Positions 1-5,503 of a stretch of DNA of 5,914 nucleotides are shown here, one piece after another. Origin of the DNA: Candidatus Latescibacterota bacterium (lineage in GTDB: Bacteria > JAAXHH01 > JACQVL01). Position 1 is the stretch's first letter, and every line of letters begins with the position of its first letter. The position numbers and the translations under genes are program-made. The stretch is from contig JACQVL010000264.1 of the NCBI GenBank assembly GCA_016209865.1, forward strand, positions 1 to 5,914, given 5' to 3'. The notes below the pieces were generated by a model, which saw nothing but the letters and a program-made list of their open reading frames with translations, ran no database searches and was not told where the DNA came from.

Positions 1-38
1 CCGCATGCGGGGGGACACGGAGGGGGGTCACATACTCG
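1..38 (-). other. Left-edge gap after the DppD-like gene; possible start region of the next gene
   Basis: These 38 bases hold two runs of six G on the plus strand (9-14, 22-27) and a perfect 10-base palindrome CCGCATGCGG at the edge (1-10). On the gene strand an ATG at 6-4 and an in-frame GTG at 18-16 could start a following gene, where a DppF-like ATPase would be expected, but only one or two codons are visible and no clear ribosome site is seen. Confidence 0.3.
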
Positions 39-50
39 TCACTCGTCACT
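34..50. repeat. Tandem heptad array (2 units plus ACT) at the end of the DppD-like gene
   Basis: The plus strand reads ACTCGTC (34-40), ACTCGTC (41-47) and ACT (48-50), the same unit and orientation as at 1026-1056. On the gene strand it encodes the last residues SDE of the ATPase and supplies its TGA stop (39-41). Confidence 0.85.
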
Positions 51-1010
51 TTGATACAGATGGCACGCCACGCGGTGGTCGGGCGCGTGCTCCCGCAAGG
101 GCGGCGCAACCGTCCGGCAGCGTTCCATCACGAACGGGCAGCGGAACTGGAAGATGCAGCCGGGCGGCGGACGGCGCAGGTCGTGGGTCAGCCCTTCAGC
201 CGCCTTCAACGGTCTGCGCGCTTTGATGGAGGGGATGGAAGCGATGAGGAGCTGGGTGTACGGATGGAGCGGGCGCTCGAACGCCTCCGTGACCGGGGCG
301 ATCTCGACGAGGTTCCCGGCGTACATCACCGCGATCCGGTCGACCAACTGGGCCTGAAGCCCCATGTCGTGTCCGATCAGGACCATCGAGACGCCCAGGC
401 GCTGTTTCACGTCCACCAGCGTCTGGGCGACGACCCGCTGGACGACGACATCCAGCGCGCTGGTCGGTTCGTCCGCGATGAGCACCGGCGGAGTGAGCGC
501 GATCGCCATGGCGATGCAAACCCGCTGTTTCATGCCGCCGCTCAACTCGTGGGGGTACAGCCCGGAGACCCGTCCGGGCAGGCCCACTAAGTTGAGCAAT
601 TCCCCGATGCGCGTGCTCAATCGCTCTCTGGGCTGCTTGCCGTCATGCGTCTGGATCGCATCCCCGATCTGGTCTTTCACCCGCATGACCGGGTTGAGGG
701 AATTCATCGCCCCCTGCGGGATGAGGGCGAGCGATCGCCAGCGAACCTCCCGGAGTTGACGCTCGCTCAGCGTAAACAGGTTCGTCCCGTTGAGCCAGAC
801 CTCCCCACCCAGCACCCGGCCGGGCGGCTGCACTAACGAGAGGATCGCCATCGCCGCCGTCGTCTTCCCGCAGCCGGATTCGCCCACCAGCCCCAACGTC
901 TCCCCGCGGTACAGGCTGAAACTGACCCCGTTCACCGCCACGACATCCCCTTTCGGGGTCTCATAGTGCACGCGCAGGTTCTTGACGTCCAGGACGACCG
1001 CTCGGTTCAC
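39..1010 (-). CDS. dppD: ABC transporter ATP-binding protein, DppD/OppD-like
   Basis: This is a cytoplasmic ATPase that drives the peptide/nickel-type importer. From the chosen start it has 323 residues, with Walker A GESGCGKT (43-50), Q-loop Q99 (IPQGAMNSLNP), signature LSGGMKQR (156-163), Walker B VLIADEPTSALD (176-187, catalytic E181) and switch H214. The C-terminal oligopeptide-ATPase extension includes RPLHPYT (246-252) and four conserved cysteines, C285, C291, C298 and C316, which in this family can hold an iron-sulfur cluster. All catalytic residues are present. The GTG at 1010 is preferred because AGAAGGA lies eight bases upstream; a GTG at 1034 is in frame but sits in the heptad array and adds eight unlikely residues. 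The final SDE and the stop are repeat-derived. A paired DppF-like ATPase would be expected next, beyond the left edge. Confidence 0.95.
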   Translation of the reverse strand: MNRAVVLDVKNLRVHYETPKGDVVAVNGVSFSLYRGETLGLVGESGCGKTTAAMAILSLVQPPGRVLGGEVWLNGTNLFTLSERQLREVRWRSLALIPQGAMNSLNPVMRVKDQIGDAIQTHDGKQPRERLSTRIGELLNLVGLPGRVSGLYPHELSGGMKQRVCIAMAIALTPPVLIADEPTSALDVVVQRVVAQTLVDVKQRLGVSMVLIGHDMGLQAQLVDRIAVMYAGNLVEIAPVTEAFERPLHPYTQLLIASIPSIKARRPLKAAEGLTHDLRRPPPGCIFQFRCPFVMERCRTVAPPLREHAPDHRVACHLYQSDE

Positions 1011-1018
1011 AGGTTCAT

Positions 1019-1025
1019 TCCTTCT
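1019..1025 (-). promoter_or_regulatory. Ribosome binding site deciding the DppD-like GTG start
   Basis: AGAAGGA on the gene strand lies eight bases before the GTG at 1010. It favours that start over the GTG at 1034, which is inside the heptad array and has no such signal. Confidence 0.65.
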
Positions 1026-1056
1026 ACTCGTCACTCGTCACTTGTCACTCGTCACT
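1026..1056. repeat. Tandem heptad array (4 units plus ACT) at the DppC-DppD junction
   Basis: The plus strand reads ACTCGTC (1026-1032), ACTCGTC (1033-1039), ACTTGTC (1040-1046), ACTCGTC (1047-1053) and a partial ACT. On the gene strand each unit contains TGA; because 7 and 3 share no factor, consecutive units put TGA in all three frames. The DppC-like gene stops in it at 1038-1040. A GTG at 1034 inside the array is also an in-frame but less likely start for the ATPase gene. Confidence 0.9.
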
Positions 1057-1907
1057 GCCTGTCTCAGCCGTGGATTCGCAATCTCATCTAAGCCGATGGC
1101 GATGAGGAACAGGCCGGTGAAGATGACGATCAGGACGAGGATGGGGAAGCCCCACCACCACCACATCCCGCGGATGATGGCGGACGACCGGATGGCGTAG
1201 AAGATGGTCATGCCTAAGGTAGGAATCCGAGTCGGTCCCAGTCCTAACGCCTCCAGGCTGGTCGCGGCCAGGATCGCGCCCGAGATGTTGCCCGTCAGGC
1301 TGGAGGCCAGGTACGGCAGCATGTTCGGGATCATCTCGGTGAGGATGATCGCCAGCGAGGAAGCGCCCGACAGCCGCGCCATCCGGATGTAGCCTCGTTC
1401 CCGCAGGGTGAGCACCTGGGCGCGGATGAGCCGGGTCGGCGCCGGCCAGGCGAACAGCGACAGGATCAACGCCATCGTGTCGATCTCCACCGTGCGGACG
1501 TAGGCGGAGATGACGATCAGGATGGCCAATGACGGGATGGTGAGCACCGCGTCGGTGACCGTGCGGATGAGGTTGTCCACCCAACCGCCGAACAGACCGG
1601 CGGTGCAGCCTAACAGGATGCCGGTCAGCATCCCCACCCCCGCCGCGATCAGGCCGACGCGCAGGGAGCGCGGCGCGCCGGTGATGACGACCGCTAAGAT
1701 ATCCCGGCCGTTGCTCTCCGTCCCGAACGGATGCGCCCGATCCCCGCCCATCATCCAGGCCGGGGGCAGGTTCAGCGGAGAAGTCCCCACCCGCGCTAAG
1801 GTGGTGTCCCAGCAAAGCGGCCCGATGACCCCCATCAGCACCACGCCTATCACCATGCTGGCACCGATGAGTAACTTAGGGGAAGTTGCGGGGTGGATCA
1901 GTGTCAT
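1038..1907 (-). CDS. dppC: ABC transporter permease, DppC/OppC-like
   Basis: This is a 289-residue partner permease of the preceding DppB-like protein. The N-terminus has one membrane segment (about 12-32), then the family signature HPFGTESNGRDIL (59-71) and PRSLRVGL (79-86). Five further membrane segments follow, near 88-108, 122-140, 145-165, 198-222 and 252-272. The coupling loop is at about 170-198 (RGYIRMARLSGAS). A run of four tryptophans stands at 249-252, a region that is Trp-rich in many DppC proteins. The natural end LDEIANPRLR (273-282) is followed by seven residues, QAVTSDK, of which at least TSDK plus the stop TGA are encoded by a heptad repeat. The ATG at 1907 lies 16 bases after the DppB-like stop with only a weak ribosome site, consistent with translational coupling. 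The family call is firm; the transported ligand is unknown. Confidence 0.95.
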   Translation of the reverse strand: MTLIHPATSPKLLIGASMVIGVVLMGVIGPLCWDTTLARVGTSPLNLPPAWMMGGDRAHPFGTESNGRDILAVVITGAPRSLRVGLIAAGVGMLTGILLGCTAGLFGGWVDNLIRTVTDAVLTIPSLAILIVISAYVRTVEIDTMALILSLFAWPAPTRLIRAQVLTLRERGYIRMARLSGASSLAIILTEMIPNMLPYLASSLTGNISGAILAATSLEALGLGPTRIPTLGMTIFYAIRSSAIIRGMWWWWGFPILVLIVIFTGLFLIAIGLDEIANPRLRQAVTSDK

Positions 1908-2936: not shown

Positions 2937-2964
2937 AGTGACGAGTGACCAGTGACGAGTGACG
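2937..2964. repeat. Tandem heptad array AGTGACG x4 in the MoaD-DppB gap, inverted relative to the other copies
   Basis: Four 7-base units on the plus strand: AGTGACG (2937-2943), AGTGACC (2944-2950), AGTGACG (2951-2957) and AGTGACG (2958-2964). They fill almost the whole 35-base gap between the MoaD-like stop and the DppB-like start. On the gene strand this copy reads CGTCACT and contains no stop triplets, unlike the copies at 34-50 and 1026-1056. It occupies the place where a ribosome binding site for the permease would be expected. Confidence 0.9.
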
Positions 2965-3221: not shown

Positions 3222-3253
3222 ACACGACGATGCTGTTCCTGTTCTCTTTCCCG

Positions 3254-3281
3254 AACCCCGAACCCCTAACCCCGAACCCCG
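3254..3281. repeat. Tandem heptad array AACCCCG x4 at the end of the large-subunit gene
   Basis: Four consecutive 7-base units on the plus strand read AACCCCG (3254-3260), AACCCCT (3261-3267), AACCCCG (3268-3274) and AACCCCG (3275-3281). The single G-to-T change in the second unit creates the TAG stop (gene strand, 3266-3268) of the large subunit, so its final residues GVRG are repeat-encoded. The remaining units extend into the 62-base gap before the MoaD-like gene. Confidence 0.9.
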
Positions 3282-5503
3282 TCCTTCCTCTCCTGACAGG
3301 CCATGACGACGCGTTCCGGGGTGATGGGGGCTTCGTTGCACCAGACGCCGATGGCGTCATGGATCGCGCCCGCGACGACCGCGATGCCCGGAGCGATGGG
3401 CGGCTCGCCCACCCCCTTGCAGCCGAACGGGCCGTTCTTGGTCGGCACCTCGACGAGGACCGACTCCACGTAGGGGACGTCCATCGCCGTCGGGATGCGG
3501 TAGTCGAGCAGGTTTGGGTTGGCGTTGCGGCCGTCGATAGCGTACTGCATTTGCTCCATCAGACCCCAGGAGAAGCCTTGCACCGCCCCGCCCTCCATCT
3601 GCCCTTCCACGCCCAGCGCATAAATCGCCCGCCCGACATCCAGACTGCCGACGTACTTGAGCAGCCGCACCTGTCCGGTGTCGGGGTTCACCTCGACTTT
3701 GGCGATCTGCGCGGCGATCGTCGTAGCGCTGGGCTGGGCGGCGAACGCGCCGCGCCCGACGATCGGGCCGCCGATCGTCCGCATTCCAAGCCGGGCAGCC
3801 TCGGCGAGGGACATCGCGTTCTCTGGATGATCCCGATCGACGACCTGGCCGTCCCGCAGTTCCAGCCGGTCGACGGGGACGGCGAACTGTTCAGCGGCTA
3901 AGGCCAGGATGCGCTCCCGCGCCTCCTCCGCCGCGCGCAGCACCGCGTTCCCCATGCTGAACGTGATCACGCTCCCGCCGGACGCCGTGGCGTACGGGGC
4001 GCTGTCGGTGTCCCCGCGGATGACTTTGACTCGCTGGTACTCCACCCCGAGCACCTCGGCGGCGATCACGGCCATCGCGCTGTCCGTCCCGGTGATGTCC
4101 ATCAGTCCGCTGAACACGCTGACCGACCCGTCCTCATGGATGGACACGACCGCCGCGCCTGGCCCGGCTCCGTTCGTCCACTCCCCGACCGCCACCCCCC
4201 AGCCCTGGTTGGGACCGGTGTCGTGCTCCCGCTGCCACCAGCCGACGTGGTCCGCGACCGCCTTCAGCGTCGCCTTAAAATCGACCTGGTCGCCCTCGCG
4301 CATGTTCTTCAGGCGTAACTCCACCGGGTCGATCCCCAGTTCATGGGCGATCCGGTTCAACTGGCTCTCCGAGGCGAACGTCGCCTGCGGCGCGCCGGGC
4401 GCGCGGTAGGCCCCCGGCGCTGGCTTATTCGTGTGGATGTCGTACGCATCCCATTTGACGTTGGGGATGGAGTAGACGCCTTGAATCCGGCCAGTCGCCC
4501 CGCAGCCGCCGCTGCCGATGCCGGGGTCCCACAGGGCGAACGCCTGACGGGCGGTGATCGTGCCGTCGTGAGTGACTCCGGTCTTGATCGTGATCACCGC
4601 GCCCGGCGCGGGACGGGCATCTAAGAATTCTTCTTCGCGGGTGTAGACGATCTTGACGGGACGCCTGGTCTTCTGAGCGAGCAGCACCGCGTACGTGTCG
4701 ATGATCCCGCCAAACTTGGCCCCGAACCCTCCGCCGATCGTCATTCCGATGCTGTTGATCTGGCTCAGGGGAATGCCGAGAGAACTGGAGATGTTCGCCC
4801 GGACGGCAAAATGGCCCTGGGTGCTGCTCCAGACGGTGACTTTCCCGTCCGGCCCGACCTCGGCGATGCACGATTGAGGCTCGATGTACGTCTGGTGCGC
4901 CCGGTGGACGATATAGGTATCCTCGAAGATACGATCCGCGTCGCGGAACCCCTGGTCGACATCCCCGATCTGGTGGTGACTTTCCCCGGCGACGTTGTGC
5001 AGGGTCTCTCCGTGCGGGCCGATCACCGGCTGGCGGTCGTCGTAGATCATCGTCGTCTCCGGCTTCGCCGCGTCTCGTGGGTCGATGTAGGCGGGCAGGG
5101 GGTCGTACTCCACCTCGACTAAGCGAACGGCATCTTCGGCGATCTCGCGCGAGACCGCCGCGATGGCCGCGATCTTCTGGCCCTGATAGGTGACCTTGTC
5201 GGTGGCGAACAGGTTGAGGACACGCCGGGTGGCGTGGACTTCCTCCTGGATGACGAGCGCCTGGTCTTCCGTCAGGTCTTGCTGGGTCATCACCGCCATC
5301 ACGCCAGGCAGGGCGCGGGCCTTGCTCACGTCGATCCGGGTGATGCGGGCATGGGCATACGGGCTGCGGACGAACACTCCATACAGCAGACCGGGCAGGT
5401 GGACGTCGGCCGTGTACCGGGCCCGTCCGGTGACTTTCTCTAAGGCGTCCACGCGGGGCACCCGGCTGCCTACGACGTGAAATTGCTGTCCGTTGGGCTC
5501 CAT
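3266..5503 (-). CDS. Molybdopterin-binding large subunit, xanthine dehydrogenase / CoxL form II-like family
   Basis: This is the catalytic subunit of a molybdenum hydroxylase, binding the molybdopterin (probably cytosine dinucleotide) cofactor and hydroxylating an aldehyde or N-heterocycle with water as oxygen donor. The 745 residues include an N-terminal a/b-hammerhead domain (about 20-135), the glycine-rich cofactor loop GGGFGAKFGG (257-266), the active-site loop AYRAPGAPQ (365-373), and KGVGEPP (696-702), whose E700 matches the catalytic base of the family. The active loop lacks the Cys-Ser of true CO dehydrogenase (AYRCSFR), so this is not form I CoxL. At 469-485 the usual GQG and AQIAAE are replaced by TGT and AVIAAE. 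The ATG at 5503 is chosen because AGAGGTGAG stands 4-5 bases upstream; an in-frame ATG at 5539 would add 12 unfamiliar residues and overlaps the hairpin region. The last residues (GVRG) and the TAG stop come from a heptad repeat. Family call secure; reaction unknown. Confidence 0.95.
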   Translation of the reverse strand: MEPNGQQFHVVGSRVPRVDALEKVTGRARYTADVHLPGLLYGVFVRSPYAHARITRIDVSKARALPGVMAVMTQQDLTEDQALVIQEEVHATRRVLNLFATDKVTYQGQKIAAIAAVSREIAEDAVRLVEVEYDPLPAYIDPRDAAKPETTMIYDDRQPVIGPHGETLHNVAGESHHQIGDVDQGFRDADRIFEDTYIVHRAHQTYIEPQSCIAEVGPDGKVTVWSSTQGHFAVRANISSSLGIPLSQINSIGMTIGGGFGAKFGGIIDTYAVLLAQKTRRPVKIVYTREEEFLDARPAPGAVITIKTGVTHDGTITARQAFALWDPGIGSGGCGATGRIQGVYSIPNVKWDAYDIHTNKPAPGAYRAPGAPQATFASESQLNRIAHELGIDPVELRLKNMREGDQVDFKATLKAVADHVGWWQREHDTGPNQGWGVAVGEWTNGAGPGAAVVSIHEDGSVSVFSGLMDITGTDSAMAVIAAEVLGVEYQRVKVIRGDTDSAPYATASGGSVITFSMGNAVLRAAEEARERILALAAEQFAVPVDRLELRDGQVVDRDHPENAMSLAEAARLGMRTIGGPIVGRGAFAAQPSATTIAAQIAKVEVNPDTGQVRLLKYVGSLDVGRAIYALGVEGQMEGGAVQGFSWGLMEQMQYAIDGRNANPNLLDYRIPTAMDVPYVESVLVEVPTKNGPFGCKGVGEPPIAPGIAVVAGAIHDAIGVWCNEAPITPERVVMACQERKDGVRG

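Follow-up and report, generated by a model that had tools for sequence, protein, structure and literature searches.

Dispersed, polar heptanucleotide arrays at gene edges supply stop codons and C-terminal tails as a by-product of their placement in a Candidatus Latescibacterota genome

Why two neighbouring transporter genes should each end inside a copy of the same seven-base tandem repeat is the question raised by a 5,914-nucleotide stretch of DNA from Candidatus Latescibacterota bacterium, referred to here as the window, which is one complete contig of a 3.75-Mb assembly that is 83% complete. Every called gene of the window lies on the minus strand, and the gene content comprises DppD-like, DppC-like, DppB-like and ThiS-like genes and a molybdopterin-binding xanthine dehydrogenase-like subunit with its [2Fe-2S] partner; the DppB-like label is based on position and sequence. 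The heptad arrays and three of these genes are located as follows:

34-50, minus strand: AGTGACG array, 2.4 units, perfect, overlapping the DppD-like gene at its 3' end
39-1010, minus strand: DppD-like ABC transporter ATPase (Pfam ABC_tran and oligo_HPY)
1026-1056, minus strand: AGTGACG array, 31 bp, 4.4 units, 91% match
1038-1907, minus strand: DppC-like permease (Pfam BPD_transp_1)
2937-2964, plus strand: third AGTGACG array, lying between the stop of the ThiS-like gene and the start of the DppB-like one
3250-3281, minus strand: array of a second heptad family, CGGGGTT (equal to the unit GGGGTTC) with a GGGGTTA variant
3266-5503, minus strand: MoCoBD xanthine dehydrogenase-like gene (Pfam), with the tail MACQERKDGVRG

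The arrays at 34-50 and 1026-1056, which the initial annotation had reported together with the TGA stops they contain, were confirmed; both read AGTGACG on the minus strand and so share one orientation. The G-rich strand of the first heads away from the DppD-like gene, whose in-frame TGA (39-41) lies within the array and whose protein ends ...LYQ-SDE, and the second covers the stop of the DppC-like gene, an in-frame TGA at 1038-1040 (protein end ...RLRQAV-TSDK), and most of the spacer between the two genes. The other two arrays had gone unnoticed: the one at 2937-2964 has its outer end upstream of the DppB-like start (2931), at a distance of 5 bp, and the xanthine dehydrogenase-like gene takes its TAG stop (3266-3268) from the one at 3250-3281, which has the polarity of the AGTGACG arrays. 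When up to 3 mismatches are allowed, the window contains seven 14-mer matches, a number reached in 0 of 200 dinucleotide shuffles.

Across the genome, AGTGACGAGTGACG occurs at 240 sites (127 forward and 113 reverse, with none for the reversed control), and it is absent from all 58 other genomes, all relatives, that were scanned; a 23-mer form has 179 copies in the genome and 5 copies in total elsewhere, in 2 of 383 other bacterial genomes. These counts are from the whole genome, and positional statistics are from an 893-kb sample (24% of the genome), 90% coding, with 792 gene calls made by a simple coding-potential caller. Because two thirds of the sample were chosen as contigs holding the 14-mer, array densities in it are biased upward; positions and polarity are unbiased by this selection. 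The sample contains 132 AGTGACG arrays, one of them within a gene. Tandem arrays of period 7 number 152, those of any other period between 4 and 16 at most 10, and random spacers of matched dinucleotide make-up yielded no period-7 array in 20 sets; seven is also the period of polar intergenic heptads of the type described by Rehm et al. in 2015. Several unrelated units coexist in the genome, namely AGTGACG, GGTGGTC, TTTTGGA, GGGGTTC, AAGGACG and CAGGGGT; the GGGGTTC and CAGGGGT families have G runs, and AGTGACG, which by inspection has no run of two Gs, is not of the G-quadruplex type.

The AGTGACG arrays keep a fixed register, 98 of the 132 beginning AGTGACG and 100 finishing GACGAGT or TGACGAG, and are mostly 16-38 bp long, with modes at 16/17, 23/24 and 30/31 and A-rich flanks at both sides. 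Simple-sequence repeats arising in place by replication slippage would also have lengths that step by seven, and the unit variants resemble slippage products, but slippage does not lead one to expect one unit in one register at many loci, the absence of other periods, or the polarity and pairing described below; it is a most improbable source of the arrays, though it may have acted later on existing copies.

Placement relative to genes is strongly polar. The AGTGACG strand has its 5' terminus, here called the outer end, on the side nearer to a gene in 104 of 121 arrays (61 ± 5.4 expected). A scan of array-to-stop distances in the sample, as called for by the initial annotation, bore out an enrichment near stop codons, with 63 arrays having their outer end no more than 20 bp from a stop where 22.9 ± 4.1 are expected, against five having their inner end there (22.7 expected). 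Starts are marked as well: the outer end of 34 antisense arrays lies within 40 bp upstream of a start, compared with an expectation of 17.1. Over all heptads 202 of 238 arrays fit, the families other than AGTGACG sharing this polarity.

Two readings of the stop codons inside arrays had been put forward at the outset. According to one, the array is a frame-independent stop cassette, retained for guaranteed termination. AGTGACG does contain TGA, and an array of three or more units presents a stop in every frame; 32 sampled genes terminate within an AGTGACG array or just past where it begins, for the most part at offsets -5, -12 and -19, as three frames predict. This reading fails, however, to account for the marking of starts, where the arrays are antisense and a stop is useless; direct overlap with stops is within the range of chance (30 arrays versus 24.3 ± 3.8 by random placement in the same spacers, 30 being reached in 94 of 1000 permutations); and many AGTGACG arrays lie 3-8 bp past the gene's own stop. 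Moreover, 60 arrays lack a stop codon in any frame of the G-rich strand, yet are placed alike (39 outward and 5 inward, 10 of them within 20 bp past a stop), and stop-free heptad arrays are translated right through by eight genes. The stop-free families largely refute the cassette as a function, and we rejected it as a highly improbable cause of placement. The other reading, in which arrays have spread into the ends of genes by virtue of insertion being tolerated there, comes closer, but it leaves unexplained why the arrays that overlap the 3' end of a gene are sense in 45 cases and antisense in a single one, when translation would not be blocked by antisense CGTCACT repeats. Since stop-free arrays keep their polarity and 3'-end overlap is so one-sided, polarity would come from the entry process and not from stop supply: the supply of stops is a by-product of array placement.

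Positions near both starts and stops might also suggest regulatory mRNA or DNA sites, for which translation control (as for TAACTGA) and G-quadruplex effects (as for GGGAATC) have been proposed (PMC4679880, PMC4692102). Arrays that are sense at stops yet antisense at starts do not allow a single RNA-level reading to cover both, AGTGACG is without quadruplex G runs, and the identified flanking genes are functionally unrelated; we regard a regulatory role as the explanation of these positions as quite improbable.

The short repeat-encoded tails proved to be lineage specific. DppD ends ...VACWLY in the sister genus (G013) and ...VACWMYEKFEG in G011, and ...VACHLY followed by QSDE in the window; QSDE is not in the homologues. 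The xanthine dehydrogenase-like protein of a relative without the array (L031) ends ...LVTEMA, and that of the window ...VVMACQERKDGVRG. A radical SAM protein ends VREAL followed by NTVTSDEENHSE here and VRDVLGL in G013, before an array-free spacer of 75 bp, this being one diverged site. Curated family models reach their end at the array itself in four proteins, transketolase (653/654), aspartate kinase (466/468), dipeptidase (455/458) and nicotinate phosphoribosyltransferase (476/480). For annotators, this means that short tails such as SDE, VTSDK and VTSDQ are repeat-encoded, and heptad arrays show how repeats rewrite protein C-termini. Tails from stop-free arrays of the CAGGGGT or GGTGGTC type that are read through were seen at L047:4657, L083:1394, L095:8624 and L101:2777, and further ones at L065:3347, L081:5582, L068:16075 and L068:16238.

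DppC and DppD form one fused open reading frame in three relatives, G013, G001 and G011 (L153, L154 and L169), which is 650 aa long in G013 and crosses the contig end in G011. The window's DppC-like and DppD-like genes share a frame across the AGTGACG array, as would fit an array that split a fused gene; we did not adopt this reading, because a distant outgroup homologue (G061, a 292-aa frame) is unfused, and genes that were never fused are therefore at least as likely.

Arrays that share a spacer face each other. All 27 AGTGACG pairs in one spacer are inward, and adjacent arrays in one spacer, taken over all heptads and oriented by the G-rich strand, comprise 55 inward, 1 outward and 7 tandem arrangements. 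Paired arms are independent in length and sequence, and different heptad families occur within one spacer, at times stacked with equal polarity. The DNA between paired arms is mostly unique, 15 of the 27 inner stretches having no match elsewhere in the sample, and the matches of the remaining ones resemble REP-like hairpin segments. Spacers with arrays are longer even after the arrays are subtracted (median 86 versus 34 bp). A target-site duplication signal is marginal (3.53 versus 3.35 ± 0.08, reached by 4 of 300 shuffles) and is not claimed. In part of the pairs a REP-like hairpin, ATTCCCGC...GCGGGAAT, was seen between the arms, and a dispersed REP-like hairpin, GGATTCCCGC..GCGGGAATGAC, is often found between inward arrays (L044:6170-6247, L109:3560-3680 and others).

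The arrays are thus dispersed, of period 7, fixed in register, polar, paired inward and independent of stop codons, and the tails they encode are lineage specific; we think it probable that they are short polar insertions that have entered spacers at gene edges, with several families in this genome. Each copy would occupy an intergenic spacer and abut a gene edge, its G-rich strand beginning at the gene on either the stop or the start side; because that strand runs from gene to spacer in every copy, two copies that share a spacer point at each other. A copy that joined a gene ahead of the original stop codon would contribute its first TGA or TAG in frame as the new stop, with a tail of a few added residues, and an array without a stop in the gene's frame would be read through. 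At spacer junctions, copies may come in along with unique filler DNA, their polarity being set by the mechanism of entry, presumably by extending or joining the DNA end on the gene side; selection would purge copies that break genes. The greater length of array-bearing spacers fits filler DNA, as it would a preference for long spacers. The comparison genomes, which lie outside the same genus or family, offer no array-free site of high DNA identity, and insertion and replacement look alike in them. We accordingly place confidence in this descriptive account, as the probable one, and far less in each mechanistic version of it.

Of the mechanisms, telomere-like extension of DNA ends predicts polarity and pairing best, although we know of no bacterial enzyme for telomere-like addition of heptads, and we consider it doubtful. 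Broken spacer ends would be 3'-extended with G-rich heptads and joined with filler, and the inward arrays would be the scars. A G-rich strand that, as at telomeres, leads away from the gene in the 5' to 3' direction agrees with this, as do the exclusively inward pairs, the independence of the arms, the mixed and stacked families of equal polarity and the mostly unique inner DNA; a possible analogy is provided by the interstitial telomeric sequences of eukaryotes, which are described as repair scars (PMC2246262, PMC8537989). The fixed register of array ends and the limited length of the arrays speak against it, enrichment at synteny breakpoints was not shown (2 of 13 array spacers are syntenic, versus 12 of 44 others), and a PF00078 reverse transcriptase was found neither in this genome (83% complete) nor in G013. 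Snap-back copying of one arm from its partner was rejected, the likeness of arms being 0.672 versus 0.694 ± 0.039 for random arms.

REPINs are dispersed, extragenic inverted doublets, and the REPs that form them are palindromic and linked to RAYTs. A miniature element, REP/REPIN-like or other, with a dedicated transposase to move it would likewise be dispersed, with fixed ends and inverted doublets, and the REP-like hairpins ATTCCCGC between some arms point the same way; however, by inspection the heptad unit has no internal palindrome and the arrays no internal inverted repeat, the inner DNA of the doublets is not conserved, 78 AGTGACG arrays are unpaired as against the 27 pairs, and no RAYT (Y1 transposase, PF01797) was found in this genome, at 83% completeness, or in G013. 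Such an element is an unlikely source. A RAYT or a PF00078 reverse transcriptase as the source was set aside, since neither was found in this genome, as was a MITE with a conserved body, given the 15 inner stretches without a match in the sample; an enzyme specific to the element was not found.

The sister genus G013 has 21 period-7 and 15 period-8 arrays, made of other units, and almost no other periods; some of its octads and heptads stand in inward pairs (L126:4907-5003 and L126:8562-8686). When oriented by purine content, 23 of 34 arrays there fit the polarity, and orientation by the G-rich strand fits better by eye. In the relative's contig L031 an AT-rich heptad bracket follows ThiS. A 30-base AGTGACG form occurs in seven IMG/VR contigs, in at least two of which (L187 and L190) it comes after a TAA stop, with an A-rich link between, and stands opposite an inverted partner. 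Other heptads abound in several of the AGTGACG-bearing contigs (22 period-7 arrays in 66.6 kb). Two IMG/VR contigs, L186 and L189, filed as viral and dense in several heptad families, may be misfiled bacterial DNA. It is a speculative thought, and one we hold with little confidence, that in several phyla an end-directed process adds G-rich heptads, and in the sister genus also octads, to the ends of spacer DNA. If it were true, telomerase-like addition would take place during repair or DNA capture, and inward heptad brackets would be the scars of a process unrecognised so far.

Comparison with known systems places the arrays in a class described before. REPINs are likewise dispersed inverted doublets, with a palindromic unit and a RAYT link that were both not found here; the palindromic unit of 20-40 bp that characterises REPs is absent from the heptad arrays. 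The STRR heptanucleotides are tandem heptads of heterocystous cyanobacteria. According to the mention of them in PMC4692102, several tandem heptad units occur per genome, in Calothrix; the lineage and units are other than those here, and a limited search of the literature, in which the STRR work figured at second hand, found no description of polarity or pairing. Rehm et al. (2015; PMC4692102), who were studying G-quadruplexes, reported polar heptads in Xanthomonas (GGGAATC) and Nostoc PCC 7120 (GGGGA(C/T)T), mostly of about four units, intergenic and nearer the 5' neighbouring ORF regardless of its orientation; they are sense within 50 bp of stops, overlap included, antisense within 50 bp upstream of starts, and form inverted pairs. 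Period 7, intergenic location, sense-at-stop and antisense-at-start polarity and inverted pairs are thus common to both, whereas that study dealt with one G-quadruplex-forming unit type per genome and here there are several units, some without G runs (AGTGACG), with AGTGACG pairs that are exclusively inward and a polarity independent of stop codons. MacGregor (2015; PMC4679880) described TAACTGA repeats in marine Beggiatoaceae, Cyanobacteria and Bacteroidetes, present in 2-6 copies, dispersed next to genes and carrying stops in all frames of one strand, for which translational control was proposed; 13 sets overlap the stop of the upstream gene. These too are dispersed, gene-adjoining heptads, some of them over stops, but unlike the arrays here they consist of a single unit that is mainly read toward the downstream start codon. 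Polarity has therefore already been published for the Xanthomonas and Nostoc heptads, and the genome studied here is of that kind; new here are the many units in one genome, the non-quadruplex units, the stop-independent polarity and the exclusively inward pairs. With one geometry common to several unrelated heptads, its shared cause lies neither in G-quadruplexes nor in stop codons, and a genome with several heptads makes testable the question of why seven-base repeats are in excess in the spacers of various bacteria.
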